Made by a program: the position numbers and the translations under genes | Notes under the pieces: model-generated | What the model was told of the DNA's origin: nothing | Seen by the model: only the letters and a program-made list of their open reading frames with translations | The model's database searches: none | Origin: an uncultured Cohaesibacter sp. | GTDB lineage: Bacteria > Pseudomonadota > Alphaproteobacteria > Rhizobiales > Cohaesibacteraceae | NCBI RefSeq assembly: GCF_963678225.1 | Contig: NZ_OY782764.1 | Location: forward strand, 248,001-312,000 | Direction: 5' to 3' | Length of the DNA stretch: 64,000 bases | Shown: piece after piece, positions 17,194-55,094 of the stretch | Layout of the letters: every line of letters starts with the position of its first letter | Position numbering within the stretch: the first letter of the stretch is position 1

Positions 17194-17324
17194 AAACTGA
17201 AGCCGCAACGACCGTCGACGCTTTCATGATCCTGGGACACCTGAATTACAGGTGGGTGCCAGTTGAAACGGACCACGGTCCAGATCAGCGCCAGCTCCCG
17301 TTCGGATCTTTAAGGCCCCGAGGA
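17171..17324 (-). ncRNA. ssrS: 6S RNA
   Basis: 6S RNA mimics an open promoter and sequesters sigma-70 RNA polymerase. Between zapA and the cyclo-ligase gene the minus strand reads CCTCGGGGCC at its 5' side and GGTCCT...GGGG at its 3' side; these pair as the closing stem with a few G-U pairs. The conserved alphaproteobacterial central part is also present: CGTTTCAACTGGCACCCACC, then TTCAGGTGTCCCAGGATCAT. Ends are approximate, set by the closing stem; the primary transcript probably extends through the hairpin at 17158-17193. Location and motif support are strong; the exact 5' end is not determined. Confidence 0.85.
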
Positions 17325-17407
17325 AAAGTTGCATCTAACGCGAAGTGCAGCAAGCTTATCATATATAGAGGAATTGCTATCGAATTTCCAGTGCGATTGT
17401 TATCACA

Positions 17408-33258: not shown

Positions 33259-33807
33259 CTATTCGGCGGCTCTTGCAGCAAAGGCATTGGCGATCATGCC
33301 GATCTGATCTCCAACCGGATTGGCCTGCACGATGTCTTCTCTGGTGTCTTCAGTATCGCGCTTGGAGTAGATGACCTCGTCAAGATGACGGATGCGCTTC
33401 TGCATATGCATGGACTGTTCAATCAGATCACGCAGGCGCGGCGGCAGTTCATCCCACCCCGGGCTATCCTTGGAAGAAGAGAGCCCATGCAGGCGAACCT
33501 TGTTTTTCTCTTGTCCAGCCTGCTCCAGCGTCATTTCGCCTTCATTCACCGCACGCTGCAGAAGCAGCCAGGATGCCATCTGCATCAGGCGCGTTGTCAG
33601 CCGCATGGATTCGGTAGCATAGGCAAGAGAAGCAACCCGCGGCAGGCTCTTTGCCTCGGAGCGCCCTTCCCCGTCCAGATAGTCGGCGGCTTCTTCTACC
33701 AGCGCCATACCATCACGAAACAGGGTTTTAAAACTATCGGAATCTGCAAGCTTTGCTCCAAAGGAAACCGGAGCCGTTATATTCGTTTGCTTACGCTTGT
33801 CGTTCAT
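33259..33807 (-). CDS. DUF1465 protein, RcdA family
   Basis: The 182-residue product is largely helical (FRDGMALVEEAADYLDGEG, YATESMRLTTRLMQMASWLLLQRAV, WDELPPRLRDLIEQSMHMQKRIRHLDEVI) and matches DUF1465. To my knowledge this family includes Caulobacter RcdA, the adaptor that helps ClpXP degrade CtrA and other cell-cycle proteins. Assigning that role here is inference from family and from the CtrA boxes in the window. Next to rpmE it is in its usual Hyphomicrobiales position, though on the opposite strand. It has its own terminator. Confidence 0.8.
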   Translation of the reverse strand: MNDKRKQTNITAPVSFGAKLADSDSFKTLFRDGMALVEEAADYLDGEGRSEAKSLPRVASLAYATESMRLTTRLMQMASWLLLQRAVNEGEMTLEQAGQEKNKVRLHGLSSSKDSPGWDELPPRLRDLIEQSMHMQKRIRHLDEVIYSKRDTEDTREDIVQANPVGDQIGMIANAFAARAAE

Positions 33808-34168
33808 GTGACCTCCAAATGCCTGGTCATGCCTACCATGTCCGATGTGTCAAATTCAAACAGACATTACACCAAATTGTCATTTCGCAGAATAACAAGC
33901 ACAAACCATGCCATCGACATTTTGCAATCTTGACAGATGCCCAGACCACTGAGAACAAGCCAATTTGGTCAGGTAACGTGCTGACTTTAGCAGAAACGAT
34001 CTCACGGAGCCAATGATTCCCGCCGATCGTATAAAAGCGCACGGTCTGACCGGCCACGCCAAGCCATCACCAAAACAAGACACAAACAGCTCCATAATGA
34101 GACAGTGGTGATTTTACACGATTCCAGCAAAAGCCGGCGACAAGAAAATAAAAGTCAATTCAATTGGT

Positions 34169-34184
34169 TAACAATTCACTAACG
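34169..34184 (-). promoter_or_regulatory. CtrA-like box with one mismatch, upstream of the DUF1465 gene
   Basis: Minus strand TTAG-TGAATTG-TTAAC. It lies about 360 bases before the DUF1465 start, which is far for direct activation. Confidence 0.25.
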
Positions 34185-34201
34185 CATTAGTTGCTTAACC
34201 T

Positions 34202-34221
34202 GAAAGGAAAGGAAAGGAAAG
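34202..34221 (+). repeat. Short tandem repeat (GAAAG)4
   Basis: Four exact GAAAG units lie in a gene-free region. This is a microsatellite-like tract that could vary in length between strains. Confidence 0.8.
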
Positions 34222-34267
34222 CACCCCCCAAGCCTTACCTGAATACCGGTTGATAAAATCCGACACG

Positions 34268-34294
34268 CAAAAAAAGAGCCGCAAGAGCGGCTCT
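34268..34294 (-). terminator. Terminator of the candidate sRNA
   Basis: Minus strand: AGAGCCGC, TCTT loop, GCGGCTCT, then T-run. On the plus strand no T-run follows, so it acts on the minus strand only. Confidence 0.85.
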
Positions 34295-34353
34295 CAGGAG
34301 TTAACAGGGAGGCGTCAAACAGAGTGACAGGAGCCACTCAAAATCCATAAAAC
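34268..34353 (-). ncRNA. Candidate small RNA with anti-Shine-Dalgarno loops
   Basis: No gene is present on the minus strand here, yet it carries a textbook terminator (GAGCCGC, TCTT, GCGGCTC, T7). Upstream of it lies TATATT as a -10 box, with a CtrA box in the -35 position. The inferred RNA of about 86 bases has a hairpin GAGTG-GCTCCTGT-CACTC whose loop carries CUCCU. A second exposed segment, GCCTCCCTG, is flanked by GTT and AAC, and ACTCCTGAG follows. Repeated CUCCU/CUCCC motifs suggest base-pairing with ribosome sites of many mRNAs, as in the alpha-r14 and AbcR-type sRNAs of rhizobia. Homology to a named family is not established. Confidence 0.55.
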
Positions 34354-34359
34354 ATGGAT

Positions 34360-34398
34360 AATATACTTTACACATATAATGCTTAATTTTTAGTTAAC
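34360..34398 (-). promoter_or_regulatory. CtrA box and -10 box of the candidate sRNA
   Basis: TTAA-CTAAAAA-TTAA (34383-34397; on the plus strand TTAA-N7-TTAAC) is followed after 17 bases by TATATT at 34365-34360. Placement of the second half-site at -35 is typical of CtrA-activated promoters. Confidence 0.55.
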
Positions 34399-34651
34399 TT
34401 CAATTTTTTCCTTTATAAACTCAAATAGAGAACAAATTTAAGCACAACCAAACAAAATTAATTTCAACAAAAACTTACAAATACATCGAACTAAAAATTT
34501 TATACTTAAGGACTTCGACTTCCGATCCAGCCTACCCCTTAGGCCAATCTTAAGACCTAAAGCCTTTAAGCCATTGAGCGCATTCCCTAGATAAAGAATA
34601 TCCGCTAGAAATGACACAATGTCACAAAACTCCAGTCAGACAGGAATGATC
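34399..34651. other. AT-rich region before the quinone oxidoreductase gene
   Basis: About 250 bases are clearly richer in A/T than their surroundings and have no coding potential I can support. They must hold the oxidoreductase promoter. Confidence 0.4.
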
Positions 34652-35647
34652 ATGCAGGACGCAACGGAAATGAAAGCCATCATAGCCTCTGAGCCGGGAG
34701 GACCGGAAAAACTCCAAGTCATCACCCGCCCCGTTCCCACCCCCGCAGACGACCAGATACTGATCAAGGTCAAGGCAGCCGGAGTGAACCGTCCTGACTG
34801 CATCCAGAGGGCGGGCAATTATCCGCCCCCTCCGGGCGCATCCGATATTCTGGGACTGGAAGTCGCCGGAGAAGTCGTAAAAGTAGGTGCCAATGTCACT
34901 GACTGGAAAGTGGGAGATAGTGTCGCCGCTCTGGTCTCGGGTGGGGGCTATGCAGAATATTGCCTCGCGCATGCAGGCAGTGCACTTGAAATTCCCAAGG
35001 GTTGGAGCTTCACCGAAGCGGCCAGCATGCCGGAAAATATTTTCACCGTTTGGCATAATGTATTCCAGCGCGGCAAGCTAAGCGCAGAAGAAACCCTGCT
35101 GGTCCATGGTGGCTCGTCAGGCATCGGCCTCACAGCCATTCAGCTGGGCAAGGCCTTTGGCGCAAAGGTCGCAGTTACGGCTGGCAGCGACGAAAAATGT
35201 CAGGCCTGTCTCGATGCAGGTGCCGATCTTGCGATCAACTACAAGACCCAGGATTTCGTTACCGAAATCAAGAATTGGACCAACCGCAAAGGCGTGAATG
35301 TCATTCTTGACATGGTTGGCGGCGATTACATCTCTAAAAACTATGTCGTCGCAGCGGAAGAAGGACGCATCGTCCAGATTGCCTTCCTCAATGGCGGGGT
35401 CGTCGAAGCAGATTTCCGCCGCCTCATGATGAAACGTCTTATCCATACCGGCTCCACGCTTCGGGCTCGGTCCGATGCGGTCAAGGCTGACATCGCCAAG
35501 GAACTCCGCATGGAGGTCTGGCAGCTGCTCCGGTGTGGTCTGGTCAAGCCACAGATCTACAAATGCTTCCCCTTCGAAGAGGCCTCCAAGGCGCATGAAT
35601 TGATGGAAAGCTCCAGCCATATCGGCAAAATCATGCTGGAATTGTAA
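34652..35647 (+). CDS. NAD(P)H-quinone oxidoreductase, zinc-free MDR family (PIG3-like)
   Basis: The 331-residue product reduces quinones or enals with NAD(P)H in characterised relatives. It opens MQDATEMKAIIASEPGGPEKL and has GLEVAGEVVKVGANVTDWKVGDSV, the nucleotide loop VHGGSSGIGLTAIQLGKAFGAKV, and VILDMVGGDYISKNY. Zinc ligands of alcohol dehydrogenases are absent. The ATG at 34652 follows AGGA with six bases between; an ATG at 34619 lacks such a site. It stands alone, in front of the TadG-like gene. Confidence 0.92.
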   Translation: MQDATEMKAIIASEPGGPEKLQVITRPVPTPADDQILIKVKAAGVNRPDCIQRAGNYPPPPGASDILGLEVAGEVVKVGANVTDWKVGDSVAALVSGGGYAEYCLAHAGSALEIPKGWSFTEAASMPENIFTVWHNVFQRGKLSAEETLLVHGGSSGIGLTAIQLGKAFGAKVAVTAGSDEKCQACLDAGADLAINYKTQDFVTEIKNWTNRKGVNVILDMVGGDYISKNYVVAAEEGRIVQIAFLNGGVVEADFRRLMMKRLIHTGSTLRARSDAVKADIAKELRMEVWQLLRCGLVKPQIYKCFPFEEASKAHELMESSSHIGKIMLEL

Positions 35648-35720: not shown

Positions 35721-35736
35721 TTAAGCCTTTGTTAAC
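35721..35736 (+). promoter_or_regulatory. CtrA-type box upstream of the TadG-like gene
   Basis: TTAA-GCCTTTG-TTAAC, an exact full consensus, 131 bases before the start codon of the TadG-like gene. Confidence 0.55.
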
Positions 35737-35866: not shown

Positions 35867-37489
35867 ATGCATACTTTTGCGCGCATCGTTTCTCGCTGCC
35901 ATCTCGACACGCTGTTTTTTGCCACCACCTCCTCCAGCACGAGGCATGAAGGGCAGAAAGGCAAACGCTCTTTCAGACGCGACCAGAGCGGCGCGATAGC
36001 CATCATTTTCGTCCTGTCGCTTCTTCCCATCATCATGATGCTGGGCGCTGCTATCGACTATGCGCGCGCGGCTCTGGCCCGCTCTGAAGCACAAGATGCT
36101 CTGGATGCGGCCACCCTTGCTGCGGTCAAGCAAATCGGCACATTGGATGAAAAAGACATCACCGACCTGATCTCGGCCTATGTGTCTGCCAATGGCCCCA
36201 AAGATGCCAATATCAAAATCGACAAGGTCGATATTCAGGATAACCCGACCTCCCTTCAAGTCTGGGCATCTGGCTCAACACAAATGACCCTGATGCAGTT
36301 CGCCAATATCGACAATATCGACTTCACGGTCACGTCGAAAACGGTCGCAGGCAACAAAACCCTCGAAGTCGTCATGGTGTTGGACAACTCAGGTTCCATG
36401 GGCAGCAGTGCGGGAACAAAGACCAGAATTGAGGCTCTAAAAGACGCCTCAAAAGAATTGATCGAGATTCTGGATGAGAAAAAACAGGATGAAGAATCCC
36501 TGAGCTTCGGATTGGTCCCCTTTACGCAGATGGTACGTCTCACGGCTGGCCTTGACGGTAAGGATTGGAAAGAAGTCCAATGGATCGACCAGAAAGGTGT
36601 TTCCTCCGTCAACAGCGACAACCTACCGGAAAACTCCAACCGCCTTGATCTGTTCGCCACCCTCAAGGACCCCTACACATACCAACCGGTCAAATGGGCA
36701 GGCTGTGTGGAAGCGCGCCCCCATCCGCTTGATATCAGGGATTCAACACCGAACGAGAATGAGCCGGATAGCTATTTCGTGCCCTTCTTCCATCCAGACA
36801 GCCGAGAGCCAAACAACAACAGGGCATACTACTGGAGCAGAGACTATTATTTGCCACGTTATGACTGGGCAGATGGCCAGACCTATGCGGAGAAACAGGC
36901 CTACGGCTACTATTTCAAACAGACGCTCAGAAAAAGCAACTACAGCCCCAACTACTGGTGCGACATGCCGCGGATCATGCCGCTAACCCATGACACGTCC
37001 GCCGTTGAGAACCATATCTCCACCATGCGGGCAAACGGTGCCACCAACATCCATATGGGTACCATCTGGGGGCTGCGCCTGCTCTCGCCTCAAGCTCCTT
37101 ATACGCAAGGGCGCGCCTATGATGATGAAGAAAATATCAAGGCCCTCATCATCATGACGGATGGCAACAACACCTATTACAACAATTATTATCACGCCTA
37201 TGGCTGGTATAATGACGGCCGCATTTCCGGCTCATCCTCGATTGTCGCCGAAATGAACAAGCGTACCACCGAGGCCTGCCAGGCCGCCAAGGATGCCATT
37301 TCGGACAAGGCCAGAAAGATAAAGATCTTCACAATCTACTTCGGCTCCCCCTCTGTCTCGACAGCAAACATGCTCAAGGGCTGCGCCAGCAAGGCTGAAT
37401 GGTACAAAAGCGTGAGCAATGCCTCGGAGTTAACCAAGGTATTCCAGAATATCGCATCCGAGTTGAGCAATCTCAGACTCGTTGAATAA
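35867..37489 (+). CDS. TadG-like pilus-assembly protein with von Willebrand A domain
   Basis: The 540-residue product has an N-terminal TadE/TadG-like segment (RRDQSGAIAIIFVLSLLPIIMMLGAAIDYARA, helix about 42-63). From about residue 165 a von Willebrand A domain follows, whose metal-site motif LDNSGSMGSS is at 172-181 and a later MTDGNNTYY block fits the domain. A Tyr/Trp/Arg-rich insert (around YYWSRDYYLPRYDWADGQTY) lies in the middle. TadG proteins belong to Tad/Flp pilus systems, but no other tad gene is in the window, so this is an orphan. AGGATAGG precedes the ATG. Confidence 0.85.
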   Translation: MHTFARIVSRCHLDTLFFATTSSSTRHEGQKGKRSFRRDQSGAIAIIFVLSLLPIIMMLGAAIDYARAALARSEAQDALDAATLAAVKQIGTLDEKDITDLISAYVSANGPKDANIKIDKVDIQDNPTSLQVWASGSTQMTLMQFANIDNIDFTVTSKTVAGNKTLEVVMVLDNSGSMGSSAGTKTRIEALKDASKELIEILDEKKQDEESLSFGLVPFTQMVRLTAGLDGKDWKEVQWIDQKGVSSVNSDNLPENSNRLDLFATLKDPYTYQPVKWAGCVEARPHPLDIRDSTPNENEPDSYFVPFFHPDSREPNNNRAYYWSRDYYLPRYDWADGQTYAEKQAYGYYFKQTLRKSNYSPNYWCDMPRIMPLTHDTSAVENHISTMRANGATNIHMGTIWGLRLLSPQAPYTQGRAYDDEENIKALIIMTDGNNTYYNNYYHAYGWYNDGRISGSSSIVAEMNKRTTEACQAAKDAISDKARKIKIFTIYFGSPSVSTANMLKGCASKAEWYKSVSNASELTKVFQNIASELSNLRLVE

Positions 37490-38500: not shown

Positions 38501-40399
38501 TCAGATCCCGTGCTCACGCAACGCATCCTCAATTTCGGAGAGAATGGTCGGATCATCAATCGTTGCCGGCATCTTGTATTCTTCATGGTCTGCGATCGCA
38601 CGCATCGTACCACGCAGGATCTTGCCTGAACGGGTTTTCGGTAAGCGATCCACGGTCACGGCGATCTTGAAAGCTGCCACCGGCCCGATCTTCTCGCGCA
38701 CCAGCTTGATCAGTTCCTTCTCGATATCCATCGGCGTGCGATCCACACCGGATTTTAGAACAACGAAACCGGCAGGCAACTGCCCCTTGAGCTTGTCGGC
38801 GATCCCGATCACGGCGCATTCTGCAACATCGGGGTGAGCCGCCAGAACCTCTTCCATCGCCCCAGTCGAGAGGCGATGGCCCGCGACATTGATGATGTCA
38901 TCGGTGCGCGACATGATGTAAAGATAGCCATTCTCATCCATATAGCCAGCATCACCGGTCTGATAATAGCCGGGGAATTCATCCAGATAGCTGGACTTGA
39001 AGCGTTCATCATTGTGCCACAAGCCCGGCAGGTTGCCCGGCGCCAGTGGCAGCTTGATGACGATATTGCCCATCTCGTTGGCGGGCACCGGATGCCCATC
39101 AGCGCCCACGATCTGAACATCATAGCCCGGCATGGCAACCGTCGGCGAGCCATGCACGATCGGCATTCGCTCGATCCCGACCGGATTGGCAGCAATCGCC
39201 CAGCCGGTTTCTGTCTGCCACCAATGATCGATCACCGGCACCTTGAGCATGTCCTCGGCCCATTGCACCGTATCCGGATCGGCCCGCTCACCCGCAAGAA
39301 ACAGAGTGCGCAACATCGAGAGATCATATTTCTTGATGAACTCCCCGTTCGGATCTTCCTTCTTGATGGCCCGGAAAGCGGTTGGCGCGGTGAACAGCGC
39401 CACCACATTATGCTCGTTGATCACCCGCCAGAAGGTGCCCGCATCAGGCGTGCCCACCGGCTTGCCTTCAAACACAATCGTCGTCGCTCCATAGATCAGT
39501 GGCGCATAGACAATGTAGGAGTGGCCAACCACCCAGCCCACATCAGACGCCGCCCAGAAGACCTCTCCGGGCTTGATGCCATAGAGATATTCCATGCTCC
39601 ATTGCAAGGCGACCATATGCCCGCCATTGTCCCGCACAACGCCCTTGGGCTGGCCAGTGGTACCGGAGGTATAAAGGATGTAAAGCGGGTCCGTTGCCAT
39701 CACTGGCACACAATCGACCACGCGATGGCGTTCGATTTCATCAACGATGGCCGCATGATAATTAATATCGCGCCCTTCCTTGAGATCGCAGACCAGTTCC
39801 TTGCGCTGGAAGACGATGCATTTTTCGGGCTTATGCGTGGCCAGCTCGATGGCTTCATCCAGCAGTGGTTTATAGGCAACAATCCGGTTCGGCTCCACAC
39901 CGCACGATGCCGAAATGATCGCCTTGGGCTTGGCGTCGTTGAGGCGCGTGGCCAGCTCATTGGCAGCGAATCCACCAAACACCACCGAATGCACAGCGCC
40001 AATCCGCGCGCAGGCGAGCATGGCAATCACGGCCTGAGGGATCATCGGCATGTAGATGATCACCCGGTCACCCTTCTCCACGCCACTGTCCAGCAACACC
40101 GCAGCCAGTGCCTGCGTCTGCATTTTCAGGTCATTATAGGTGTATGTTTCCTTGTGACCGGTAATCGGACTATCATAAATGATCGCGTCTCTCTGGCCAT
40201 GGCCAGCATTCACATGGCGATCCACCGCATTGTAGCAGGTGTTGCATTCAGCCCCTGCAAACCAGCGCCCATAGGTACCGGCATTCGCGTCAAAAATTTT
40301 GTCAGCCGGTTTGTACCAGCTGATCTTCTTGGCCGCATTCGCCCAGAATTCTTCCGGATTCTGCTTCCATCCCTCATAGACTTCCTTGTAAGCTGCCAT
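38501..40399 (-). CDS. prpE: Propionyl-CoA synthetase
   Basis: PrpE activates propionate (and acetate less well) to the CoA thioester by an adenylate. The 632-residue product starts MAAYKEVYEGWKQNPEEFW and has the phosphate loop LYTSGTTGQPKGVVRDNGGH, whose VVRDNGG is characteristic of PrpE rather than Acs. WWQTETGW and GYYQTGDAGYMDENG follow. The C-terminal lysine lies in LPKTRSGKILRGTMR, the acetylation site used for control in relatives. No prpBCD genes are nearby. Confidence 0.93.
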   Translation of the reverse strand: MAAYKEVYEGWKQNPEEFWANAAKKISWYKPADKIFDANAGTYGRWFAGAECNTCYNAVDRHVNAGHGQRDAIIYDSPITGHKETYTYNDLKMQTQALAAVLLDSGVEKGDRVIIYMPMIPQAVIAMLACARIGAVHSVVFGGFAANELATRLNDAKPKAIISASCGVEPNRIVAYKPLLDEAIELATHKPEKCIVFQRKELVCDLKEGRDINYHAAIVDEIERHRVVDCVPVMATDPLYILYTSGTTGQPKGVVRDNGGHMVALQWSMEYLYGIKPGEVFWAASDVGWVVGHSYIVYAPLIYGATTIVFEGKPVGTPDAGTFWRVINEHNVVALFTAPTAFRAIKKEDPNGEFIKKYDLSMLRTLFLAGERADPDTVQWAEDMLKVPVIDHWWQTETGWAIAANPVGIERMPIVHGSPTVAMPGYDVQIVGADGHPVPANEMGNIVIKLPLAPGNLPGLWHNDERFKSSYLDEFPGYYQTGDAGYMDENGYLYIMSRTDDIINVAGHRLSTGAMEEVLAAHPDVAECAVIGIADKLKGQLPAGFVVLKSGVDRTPMDIEKELIKLVREKIGPVAAFKIAVTVDRLPKTRSGKILRGTMRAIADHEEYKMPATIDDPTILSEIEDALREHGI

Positions 40400-51169: not shown

Positions 51170-51566
51170 TAAAGTGAAAGTGTCTGAAACCGGATCAAGC
51201 TCCGGCTGTCGAAGAACCGACCTGTCTAAGATAGGAATTCCTGTCTCAAGGTCAAATATCTAAATCGTAAGAAATCAGGATAAAGGCGTATAACCCGCAT
51301 TCACTCCCGAATACAGACCAGAATTGGTCCAAATATCGGCGCAGAGACCGCGCAATCAATCATTTAATCAAATATGAACATATCTCTCCCACCGCCTTCG
51401 CATTAACGCACAATTAACCGATTGCGCTCATCGTGGTTCAAAATGAAACAGATCGCATCCATGATGTGAGAATCGCCACTGCCAGATAGCGCAGTCGGGG
51501 CCCATGCATTATCGCCCCCACCAAAAGAGCAAGGCGATCAGTTAGAAATCAGCCATCGAGGGCAAG
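51170..51566. other. Divergent promoter region between pepF-like gene and sigma-54 regulator gene
   Basis: These 397 gene-free bases are AT-rich between about 51280 and 51420. A perfect CtrA-type box is at 51403-51418; no other clear signal is seen. Confidence 0.45.
51403..51418 (+). promoter_or_regulatory. CtrA-type box upstream of the sigma-54 response regulator gene
   Basis: TTAA-CGCACAA-TTAAC, exact full consensus, 149 bases before the start codon. Confidence 0.55.
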
Positions 51567-53180
51567 ATGAACGAACGCATCCTGATTGTTGACGATGACC
51601 CGGTACAAAGACGCCTGCTCGAAGCTGTGGTCGAGAAGAGCGGCTTTGAGACGGCCTGTGCTGAAAATGGAGAGCAAGCGCTTGCCATTCTGCAAGAAAA
51701 TCCCTCCACCCATTTCGATCTGATCATTCTGGATCTCGTCATGCCGAATCTCGACGGCATGGGCGTGCTTCAGGCTTTGCAGAAGACCGATATCAAGGCC
51801 CCGATCATCGTGCAGACCGCCCATGCCGGGATCGACACCGCGGTGAATGCCATGCGCGCGGGGGCCTTTGACTTTGTCATCAAGCCGGTTGCCCCCGAGC
51901 GCCTGCAAGTGGCCATGCGCAATGCCCTCAAGGTCAATGCCCTTGAGGATGAAATCACCCGCATCCGCTCCAAGCGCGATGGCAATCTCAGCTTCAAGAG
52001 CATCATCTCCTCAAGCGATACGATGGGGCGCGTCATCAATCTTGGCCAGCGCGCGGCGAAATCCCACATTCCCATTCTCATCGAAGGAGAATCCGGCGTC
52101 GGCAAGGAACTGATTGCCAAGGCGATTCAGCATGCCTCTGATCGTTCCAGCAAACCTTTTGTCACGGTCAACTGCGGCGCCATTCCCGACAATCTGGTCG
52201 AAAGCATTCTTTTTGGCCATGAAAAGGGGGCCTTTACCGGCGCCAACGACAAGCATATCGGCAAATTCGTCGAGGCCAATGGCGGCACGCTGTTTCTGGA
52301 CGAAGTTGGAGAATTGCCACTCGATACACAGGTCAAGCTTTTGCGGGCCCTGCAGGAAGGTGAGATTGACCCGGTTGGTGCTGCCAAGCCCGTAAAAGTC
52401 GATTTTCGCCTGATCTCGGCGACCAACAAGGATCTGATCCAGTTGGTCAAGGATGGCAAGTTCCGCGAAGACCTTTACTACCGGCTCAATGTCTTCCCCA
52501 TTCGGGTGCCGCCTCTGCGAGACCGCAAGGATGACATCCCCGCCCTCACGCGCAATTTCCTTGCGCGCTTTGCCGCCGAGGAAGGCCGCAAGAATCTGAC
52601 GCATGTGACGCCCGAGGCCCTCTCCCTGCTACAGAGCTATGACTGGCCCGGCAACATTCGCCAGTTGGAAAACACCGTCTTCCGCGCTGTCGTTCTGTGC
52701 GACAGCAATCAACTGACTGTGGATGAATTCCCGCAGATCGCCAGTCAGGTGAGCGCCTACAGTGCCTCCGTCGTCAAGGCCCGTTCGCCCAACCCTTCCG
52801 AGCTGGCCTATGTGGAGCAGACAGAGCCTCAATCAGCCCCATCAATGCCCACATCAAGCGCCCCTCATCCCGAGGCCGGCAATCATGGCAATGTGGCTCC
52901 TCGCACAGCTGATCCGGCAGCAGACCAGCCTTTCAAAGCTGCGCCTAGTCCCTCAGCCCTGCAGCAAGACCCATGGGGCTTTCTCAGGCTGCTCGATGAA
53001 CAGGGAAACATACGCCCTCTGGCCGAGCTGGAAGCGGAGATCATCAAACGAGCACTCGAACATCATGACTATCGCATGTCCGATGTTGCGCGCCGATTGG
53101 CTATTGGCCGCTCGACACTCTATCGCAAACTGAAGGAATATGGGCTGGACCAGCCCAGCAACGATGCCGAAGCATCCTGA
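51567..53180 (+). CDS. Sigma-54-dependent response regulator (NtrC family)
   Basis: The 537-residue product has a receiver domain (1-120; DDD at 9-11, phosphorylated Asp56 in LIILDLVMP, Lys106 in FVIKPV). The AAA+ domain has Walker A GESGVGKE (174-181), the sigma-54 contact motif GAFTGA (221-226) intact, GGTLFLDEVGELP and RKDDIPALTRNF. A Pro/Ser/Ala-rich linker leads to a Fis-type helix-turn-helix (YRMSDVARRLAIGRSTLYRKLKEYGL). No sensor kinase gene is adjacent, so it is an orphan. Targets may include the neighbouring cell-wall genes. Confidence 0.94.
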   Translation: MNERILIVDDDPVQRRLLEAVVEKSGFETACAENGEQALAILQENPSTHFDLIILDLVMPNLDGMGVLQALQKTDIKAPIIVQTAHAGIDTAVNAMRAGAFDFVIKPVAPERLQVAMRNALKVNALEDEITRIRSKRDGNLSFKSIISSSDTMGRVINLGQRAAKSHIPILIEGESGVGKELIAKAIQHASDRSSKPFVTVNCGAIPDNLVESILFGHEKGAFTGANDKHIGKFVEANGGTLFLDEVGELPLDTQVKLLRALQEGEIDPVGAAKPVKVDFRLISATNKDLIQLVKDGKFREDLYYRLNVFPIRVPPLRDRKDDIPALTRNFLARFAAEEGRKNLTHVTPEALSLLQSYDWPGNIRQLENTVFRAVVLCDSNQLTVDEFPQIASQVSAYSASVVKARSPNPSELAYVEQTEPQSAPSMPTSSAPHPEAGNHGNVAPRTADPAADQPFKAAPSPSALQQDPWGFLRLLDEQGNIRPLAELEAEIIKRALEHHDYRMSDVARRLAIGRSTLYRKLKEYGLDQPSNDAEAS

Positions 53181-53322: not shown

Positions 53323-55074
53323 ATGATGATGAAACCGACTCTTGCAGCTCTTCTGGCATGTGCCATTTGCCCGACGAGCGCAGCTCTGGCAACGCCGACA
53401 GCCAATGACCCCACGGCCCAGCCGGTGGTTCTGTTTGGAGAAGAACCTGCCGATCCCGTTGCCACGCAGATCCAGGATCAGATCAGAATCCAAAGCGTCA
53501 TTGATAATATGCACCGGGTCATACTGGGGGCGATTGATCAACAGGCCGATCAGGATCTGGCCGATGCTATCTCGACCGCCATCGACACCATGCCTCAGGC
53601 GCCGGACTTTCTGACCAAGAGAGACAATGCAGCCCTTGTCGCTTTCTATGAAGAGCGCGCCTTCGCGCCTGCATGGTTCGACAATGGCGAGTGGACCGCC
53701 AATGCCCGCAAGCTAATTTTCAATCTCGCCCGCGCAGAACGCGATGGCCTTGATCCATCCGATTATAAAACGCCCTCTCTGGCAACTTCACGCAAAAAAG
53801 GCACGAGTGCAGACGCCATCGCCAAGGCAGATCTTGCCCTGTCTCTGGCTCTGACCCGCTATACGCGTCACGCCTATGCTGGCCGGGTTGATCCGCGTAT
53901 CTTCTCCAAAAAAGAAGTGACGATCAAACCGCATTATCCTGATTCCATTGATGCCCTGAACCAGATTGTCAAAGCCGACAATCCGGTGGCAAAAATGCGC
54001 AGCTATAACCCCCAGCACAAGGGCTTCCTTGCTCTGCGTGCGGAATATAATCACCTCAGGGCACAGGGCAGCGAAGACGACACGCCGCCCATTGCCTCCG
54101 GCAAAAGCCTGCGGGTTGGCATGCGTGATGATCGCGTCCCCCTGTTGCGCCGCAAGCTCGGCCTTGCTGCAGCTGAAGACGAATCCTCAAGCACGCTCTA
54201 TAGCAAAGAGCTGGCCAAGGCCGTCGAGACCTATCAGTCCGACAATGGCCTTATTGCAGACGGTATTGTAGGCAACGCAACCCTTAGCGTGCTCAACAAC
54301 AATCGCAAGGATCTGATCGCCGACATCATCGCGAACATGGAACGCTGGCGCTGGCTGCCCCGCGATCTGGGCGACTTCCATGTCATGGTGAACATTCCCA
54401 CCTACAGCCTTGAAGTGGTCAAGAATGGCAAAACCATTCATGAAACCCGTGTTGTCGTTGGCAAGAAGGCCCACAAAACGCCAATCTTCTCCGATGAGAT
54501 GGAATATGTGGTCGTCAATCCATATTGGAACGTGCCACGCTCTATCGCGTCCAAGGAACTGCTACCCAAGATTAAGGCAAATCCGGCCGCCTTTTTCTCA
54601 AACCAGAATTATCAGGTTCTGGCCAGCGTCAAAGGCCGCACTCAGGTCATCGATCCTTCAAAACTGGACTGGGACCGCGTGGAAGCCGATATGGTGCGCC
54701 TGCGCCAGACACCGGGCACGCGCAACGCTCTGGGCAACATCAAGTTCATGTTCCCCAACCAGCATGCGGTCTATCTGCATGACACCCCATCCAAAAGCCT
54801 GTTCAATCGCGATTATCGTGCCTTCAGTCATGGTTGCGTCCGCGTGAACAAGCCATTTGAATTTGCCGATGTGATTCTGTCCCAGACCTCGAAATGGGAT
54901 GCCTCCCGTATCAAGGCGATGCTGGGCTCCAATGAGCGGCGGGTTAATCTGACCAAGAAGATCCCGGTGCATCTGGCCTATTTCACCACATGGATGTCTC
55001 ATGAAGGCACCCTGCAGCTGCGCTCGGATATCTATGGGCACAATGCAAAAGTCAAAGCGGCTCTGGGCCTTTAA
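53323..55074 (+). CDS. L,D-transpeptidase (YcbB-like, YkuD domain)
   Basis: L,D-transpeptidases make 3-3 crosslinks in peptidoglycan. The 583-residue product has a signal peptide (LAALLACAICPTSAALA), an N-terminal domain with ALVAFYEERAFAPAWFDNGEWT typical of YcbB, a peptidoglycan-binding repeat (RVGMRDDRVPLLRRKLGL ... AVETYQSDNGLIADGIVGNATL), and the YkuD core. The active-site cysteine lies in RAFSHGCVRVNKPFEFA. Three ATGs lie at the start; I took the first. A CtrA-like box follows its stop codon. Confidence 0.93.
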   Translation: MMMKPTLAALLACAICPTSAALATPTANDPTAQPVVLFGEEPADPVATQIQDQIRIQSVIDNMHRVILGAIDQQADQDLADAISTAIDTMPQAPDFLTKRDNAALVAFYEERAFAPAWFDNGEWTANARKLIFNLARAERDGLDPSDYKTPSLATSRKKGTSADAIAKADLALSLALTRYTRHAYAGRVDPRIFSKKEVTIKPHYPDSIDALNQIVKADNPVAKMRSYNPQHKGFLALRAEYNHLRAQGSEDDTPPIASGKSLRVGMRDDRVPLLRRKLGLAAAEDESSSTLYSKELAKAVETYQSDNGLIADGIVGNATLSVLNNNRKDLIADIIANMERWRWLPRDLGDFHVMVNIPTYSLEVVKNGKTIHETRVVVGKKAHKTPIFSDEMEYVVVNPYWNVPRSIASKELLPKIKANPAAFFSNQNYQVLASVKGRTQVIDPSKLDWDRVEADMVRLRQTPGTRNALGNIKFMFPNQHAVYLHDTPSKSLFNRDYRAFSHGCVRVNKPFEFADVILSQTSKWDASRIKAMLGSNERRVNLTKKIPVHLAYFTTWMSHEGTLQLRSDIYGHNAKVKAALGL

Positions 55075-55078
55075 GACT

Positions 55079-55094
55079 TTAAGCCTTTGTTAAT
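55079..55094 (+). promoter_or_regulatory. CtrA-like box between the L,D-transpeptidase and DUF882 genes
   Basis: TTAA-GCCTTTG-TTAAT. The core TTAA-N7-TTAA is exact and the 15-base core is identical to that upstream of the TadG-like gene. It is 340 bases from the next start codon and close to the terminator, so its role is less sure. Confidence 0.35.

Follow-up and report, generated by a model that had tools for sequence, protein, structure and literature searches.

A BjrC1505-family small RNA gene of Cohaesibacter with a conserved promoter box that suggests control by CtrA

In this study, we have followed up a predicted minus-strand small RNA (sRNA) gene in a 64,000-nucleotide stretch of DNA from an uncultured Cohaesibacter sp. 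(hereafter the window). The Rfam match, the presence in related genomes and the covariation of the helices make this locus, almost certainly, an sRNA gene of RF02356 (BjrC1505). Computation establishes its family, structure, terminator, conserved promoter box and conserved locus (Table 1). The gene is thus a new member of a known Rfam family whose function is uncharacterised. As a CtrA-like box is kept at the sRNA promoter in many related bacteria, our results suggest an RNA output of the cell-cycle circuit that has been overlooked.

The match to RF02356 is full-length (model 1-140, window 34404-34269 on the minus strand) and scores 91.1 bits (gathering score 50, E = 5.2e-16); the RNA shares the terminator, hairpins and core of that family with no difference in kind. 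At the curated score, two families are matched in the window, BjrC1505 and, elsewhere, 6S RNA (SsrS; 17196-17356, minus strand, 55.3 bits, over its gathering score). The original prediction of a minus-strand sRNA gene is borne out by the Rfam match, by the terminator and by the window's list of open reading frames, in which none of at least 60 amino acids covers 34269-34404; a hidden coding role for the RNA was rejected on the same ground. Its placement among the alpha-r14 or AbcR types did not hold: a permissive Rfam scan of 34000-34700 (E up to 1), in which only the best of overlapping matches within one clan is listed, returned neither, and its sole extra match was suhB/mmgR (22.9 bits, cut-off 41). 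The conservation expected in relatives was found, with an RF02356 match in 37 of 41 genomes (our own and its relatives; 36 above the cut-off). Across the class, the same model matched 45 of 387 genomes, 19 of them above the cut-off, and it matched none of 14 control genomes; Caulobacter vibrioides is named among the 14 controls of the GcrA search. An exact pattern of the RNA core occurs in at least 120 stretches of named genomes, and the 80 matches listed include Bradyrhizobium, Afipia, Bosea, Roseibium, Stappia, Mesorhizobium, Phyllobacterium and Brucella endophytica.

Table 1. Features of the sRNA locus and its neighbours, in window coordinates.
Feature	Position	Strand	Basis or occurrence
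Small RNA, BjrC1505 family, about 91 nt	34269..34359	-	Rfam match (34404-34269), which spans the promoter too; fold
CtrA box TTAACTAAAAATTAA (TTAA-N7-TTAA)	34383..34397	-	Exact motif match; conserved across loci
Putative -10 region	34360..34370	-	TAAAGT (34370-34365, fits the conserved geometry) or TATATT (34365-34360)
Hairpin 1 (AUCCAU...AUGGAU)	34343..34359	-	Helix 1: both sides changed in 4 of 5 pairs, compensatory in relatives
Hairpin 2 (GAGUGGC-UCCU-GUCACUC), CUCCU in loop region	34322..34339	-	Helix 2 and fold
Core UUGACG-CCUCCC-UGUUAA, weak hairpin displaying CCUCCC	34301..34318	-	Predicted fold
Intrinsic terminator with T7	34269..34295	-	Terminator scan and helix 3
DUF1465 gene (PF07323), next gene downstream	33259..33807	-	138 of 150 loci
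QOR, zinc-type alcohol dehydrogenase / quinone oxidoreductase-like, divergent neighbour	34619..35647	+	106 of 150 loci

The window RNA (34359-34269) has a predicted fold of -33.9 kcal/mol (z = -6.9) with four hairpins. An alignment of 80 RNAs (A1, 80 of the 102 non-redundant sequences) supports three helices, in which 96.4% of the cells are paired, as against 91.1% in shuffles and 34.2-54.5% with slid partners; changes on both sides occur in 12 of the 18 pairs of these helices, as against 5.0 in shuffles. The orphan terminator noticed beforehand is present, with a stem at 34295-34287 / 34282-34274 and its T7 at 34275-34269 (minus strand), and the next same-strand gene starts at 33807. The third hairpin, which holds the core, has five pairs that are also seen in the alignment; it is less certain because its stem shows no changes on both sides.

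The motifs CUCCU (in a hairpin loop), CCUCCCUG and CUCCUG, to which the original prediction drew attention, are all found in the sequence. Their conservation had also been expected, and here the terminator helix and CCUCCCUG (kept in 101 of the 102 non-redundant members) stand, but the other two CUCC motifs are local. The CUCC of hairpin 2 is kept in 64 of the 102 members and absent from 38, and the CUCCU adjoining the terminator is found in 12 of the 102, yet in 18 of 19 close sequences (our own, 16 others from the genus, and one each from the family and the order). Repetition of anti-ribosome-site motifs is therefore true of the genus itself, whereas the general feature of the family is one CCUCCC loop, within a core, UGACGCCUCCCUGU, that is almost invariant in the 80-RNA alignment. 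These motifs had furthermore been placed in single-stranded parts: UCCU and CCUCCC do lie in predicted loops, but the latter occupies the loop of the weak third hairpin and not an open strand. The loop of hairpin 1 is U-rich and without an anti-Shine-Dalgarno motif, the motif lying in hairpins 2 and 3 of the fold. The Phyllobacterium, Mesorhizobium and Brucella endophytica loci (L087, L098, L101) have a hairpin-2 loop without CUCC and keep the core and the CtrA box.

Upstream of the RNA, the full CtrA box that had been announced is exact (34397-34383, minus strand). It also fits TTAAC-N6-TTAA, of which the window holds four examples, compared to 0.10 on average in dinucleotide shuffles. In PMC12403871, the CtrA motif is given as TTAA-N7-TTAA. 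As the Rfam model with which L001-L030 and L151-L179 were found spans the box, only L031-L150, together with the places found by R1 (see below), are free of bias towards it. Among core-pattern loci with enough flank, a box at one mismatch or fewer is present in 111 of 115 (42 exact); after removal of near-duplicates it is present in 64 of 68 (31 exact), these 68 having been found by the RNA core alone with the box unused in the search. The mixed set comprises 102 non-redundant members; the box is present at up to one mismatch in 97 and exactly in 51, compared to 9.8 and 0.8 in shuffles. Five loci (L035, L092, L105, L134, L171) were left out because their flanks or core were missing. Spacers of 5, 6, 8 and 9 gave 19, 30, 14 and 10 of the 102 at one mismatch (shuffles 9.4 to 10.8), spacers 5 and 6 thus also exceeding their shuffles (10.8 and 10.3), but exact matches numbered 2, 1, 0 and 0, with no rise for 5 and 6. 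In a logo of 168 sequences, near-duplicates included, both half-sites are prominent, as is a C that follows the first; weaker signals are GCTTTC, directly behind the second half-site, and a more distant TTAT. The bases that separate the half-sites are not prominent.

To find relatives without any help from the box, we built a model (R1) on the RNA only; it matched 93 of the 387 class genomes (E up to 0.001). Sixty of the 72 new places were fetched, of which two repeat earlier loci (L215 = L172; L216 = L171), and the box is found in 37 of these 60 distant places. When they are split by a motif, chosen after the sequences had been inspected, the box is present in 34 of 42 places outside a side group (5.0 in shuffles) and in 3 of 18 within it (0.4 in shuffles). 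The side group consists of RNAs with ACGUCUCCCAGACGU, GAAGCCUCCCUGUUAAACUU and a terminator, mostly without a CtrA box (L228, L229, L244-L247, L253, L256, L259, L261-L263, L265 and others), and may represent either an older form of the BjrC1505 family or a separate one. Presence or absence of CtrA was rejected as the explanation for its missing box, CtrA being found at E up to 1e-60 in 12 of the 15 genomes checked.

The position of the box also bears on where the RNA begins. TATATT lies 17 bases past the box, as had been described, at 34365-34360. The -10 in the window is weak, and the sRNA promoter yielded no sigma-70 site in a simple promoter scan. The -10/-35 rules applied here, like the name of the box, follow in part general usage. 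Hairpin 1 begins 23 or 24 bases past the box in 91 of 165 sequences, a spacing that would set the start of the window RNA near 34359. The 5' end is thus probably about six bases upstream of 34353, the position first proposed (for an RNA of about 86 bases), and the transcript would measure about 91 nt; an RNA beginning at 34353 would lose part of hairpin 1. This geometry has a consequence for the Rfam model, whose 5' domain covers the CtrA box. In 58 sequences, the pairs proposed for that domain form in 48.3% of cells, compared to about 96% for the downstream helices; the controls give a mean of 44.0% for shuffles and 31-41% for slid partners, and 48.3% exceeds all 300 shuffles, as can happen with related sequences. 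In view of this poor pairing, the first 45 or so positions of RF02356 look like promoter DNA carrying the CtrA box and not like a folded 5' domain.

If CtrA controls the sRNA, as the conserved site suggests, its gene should accompany the box. Our own genome has a clear CtrA gene (G000:C2:189661-190341), with 81% identity to Caulobacter CtrA, and CtrA is found at E up to 1e-60 in 23 of the 27 genomes checked in the main group, our own included. With the same Caulobacter protein, the other four (G136, G421, G225, G204; assemblies in 20 to 320 contigs) gave no CtrA at this threshold, and against the CtrA of our own genome their best identity is 34-38%, the level of its paralogues. All four carry the box at one mismatch or fewer, which weakens the case for CtrA. 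GcrA was found in all 41 genomes, our own included. The genomes with a box and without a clear CtrA would fit another explanation, namely that the box belongs to the divergent QOR gene or is the site of another regulator, and that the sRNA is transcribed from an ordinary sigma-70 promoter; QOR indeed begins on the other side of the box in most loci (106 of 150). We regard this as unlikely, given that the box stands at the 23- or 24-base distance ahead of hairpin 1 in so many sequences and is kept in L165, L172 and L178, where QOR was not found.

The neighbourhood was counted in 150 loci (L001-L150, 2 to 8 kb each), 97 of which have both DUF1465 and QOR. TrcR ("transcriptional cell cycle regulator", a Pfam name) lies 3.3 kb away in the window and is present in 34 of the 150. 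The place of DUF1465 in the window, downstream of the RNA on the same strand, and its presence in 138 loci would agree with the RNA being a prematurely terminated leader, an attenuator acting in cis on that gene. We hold this to be improbable. In the window, DUF1465 starts 461 bases past the terminator, and in distant families the downstream gene is a different one: a PLP-dependent sulfhydrylase-like gene in L157, L158, L161 and L172 and a dehydrogenase-like gene in L165 and L178 (both by eye), with no DUF1465 match. The RNA, the box and the terminator are kept in all six although the downstream gene differs, so the RNA is not simply a DUF1465 leader, and its description as an independent sRNA gene is right.

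We are inclined, with moderate confidence in the whole chain, towards a CtrA-driven, trans-acting sRNA that masks Shine-Dalgarno sites. We infer that phosphorylated CtrA would bind the box (34397-34383), which would overlap the -35 region, and that it would thereby switch on a transcript of about 91 nt ending at the T7 terminator. The RNA would act in trans: its predicted hairpin loops display CCUCCC, in almost all members, and in many a second CUCC; these could pair with the Shine-Dalgarno regions of chosen mRNAs and so lower their translation while CtrA is active. The anti-Shine-Dalgarno step is proposed from the form of the RNA, by analogy with NfeR1 and AbcR, which carry such motifs and repress by pairing near start sites according to PMC7143759. 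The same source describes alpha-r14 / NfeR1 as displaying the motif in hairpins, as here, but with three hairpins and the motif unpaired in all loops, whereas the loop of our hairpin 1 has none; the NfeR1 promoter is described there as being of the sigma-70 type with its own conserved motif, in place of the CtrA box of our sRNA. AbcR1/2 and suhB/mmgR share CU-rich anti-Shine-Dalgarno motifs with our RNA, and suhB/mmgR has CUCCCU and the terminator region in common with it (the match below cut-off given above), but both differ in structure and locus.

Two further RNAs are close in theme. EcpR1 (SmelC291) is an sRNA that likewise comes from the Rhizobiales and is linked to the cell cycle (PMC4414408). 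It is described there as having the loop UCCGCCGCAUCU, a locus downstream of divK-pleD and a stress-driven sigma-70 promoter; this loop is absent from our RNA, whose neighbours are DUF1465 and QOR and not divK-pleD. As described, EcpR1 acts on cell-cycle genes, as GspR acts on cell-cycle regulators, whereas in our case it is the supply of the RNA that looks cell-cycle controlled. CcnA of Caulobacter is, according to PMC8959179, a noncoding RNA presumably activated by CtrA and with a C-rich loop; it lies at the origin and uses CCCC, while the RNA studied here displays CCUCCC.

Target prediction in our own genome, among the window genes and in relatives gave no firm or recurrent mRNA target. This result, together with the almost invariant core, could also be explained if the RNA bound a protein, in a titration or ribosome-linked role, and did not pair with mRNAs. 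Such a role seems rather unlikely to us, as CCUCCC in a loop is a form known from pairing sRNAs (PMC7143759). In our own genome, the antisense of the core at up to three mismatches occurs only in the sRNA itself and at one site inside an argB-like frame (by eye), and was rejected as a lead. ACAGGGAG precedes an ATG at 30 places there, of which 8 are plausible starts after filtering and 5 of these transport-like by eye; for the control TGAGGGAG there are 31 places, 30 of them read, with 9 plausible starts and 2 transport-like. In two relatives, ACAGGGAG gave 27 and 22 places with 9 and 5 plausible starts and no class in common, the numbers being small. For gcrA (28 of 30 loci readable), duplex energies ran from -13.9 to -23.8 kcal/mol, most of them stronger than the window median, and for ctrA (18 of 30 loci readable) from -6.8 to -22.8 kcal/mol; neither gene stands out as a target, both lying within the range of 49 window genes (median -15.5, best -27.8). 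The best duplex among these 49 belongs to an acyl-CoA synthetase-like gene (38501-40399, minus strand; by eye), with CUGGGAGGCGUGAAUG at its start, a ribosome site of which nine bases are complementary to the RNA core. The start could be read in 24 of 30 loci of relatives, with energies of -11.5 to -28.2; by eye, GGGAGG is present at the start in 20 of these 24 and GGGAGGC in 13. Because GGAGG is an ordinary ribosome site, this gene is a lead only.

The BjrC RNAs were reportedly first described by Madhugiri et al. 2012. In the literature searched, which leaves most subscription journals outside, we found nothing linking BjrC1505 to CtrA, and the name occurs in one paper, in a table; a constant CtrA box in the family was not found there either, although part of this may already be in Madhugiri et al. 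2012. A term search of the Sinorhizobium CtrA paper (PMC4433202) for small-RNA words gave no matches. Tentatively, and with more doubt than for the chain at this locus, we propose that a CtrA-driven sRNA spread over much of the Alphaproteobacteria may be an old, standard output of the cell cycle, made by CtrA in a burst in each cycle, and that its CCUCCC loop would mask Shine-Dalgarno sites on a group of mRNAs; on this view, RF02356 is that RNA, with the promoter mistaken for a folded 5' domain. If this is true, CtrA would act through RNA on a much wider scale, by way of a family whose CtrA box is fixed all the way from Bradyrhizobium to Roseibium and Brucella endophytica, and an uncharacterised Rfam family would gain a testable controller and a corrected boundary.

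Besides the box of the sRNA, the window holds three more exact TTAAC-N6-TTAA boxes. One (35721-35735, minus strand) precedes a Tad/VWA gene at 35867, another (51403-51417, plus strand) stands ahead of the gene at 51567, by eye an NtrC-like response regulator, and the third (55079-55093, minus strand) lies just past a gene ending at 55074; the first and the third are identical over their 15 bases. Finally, two to three copies of the RNA are present per genome in G218 and G359 (L179, L202, L210, L211), those of G359 being about 200 bases apart.
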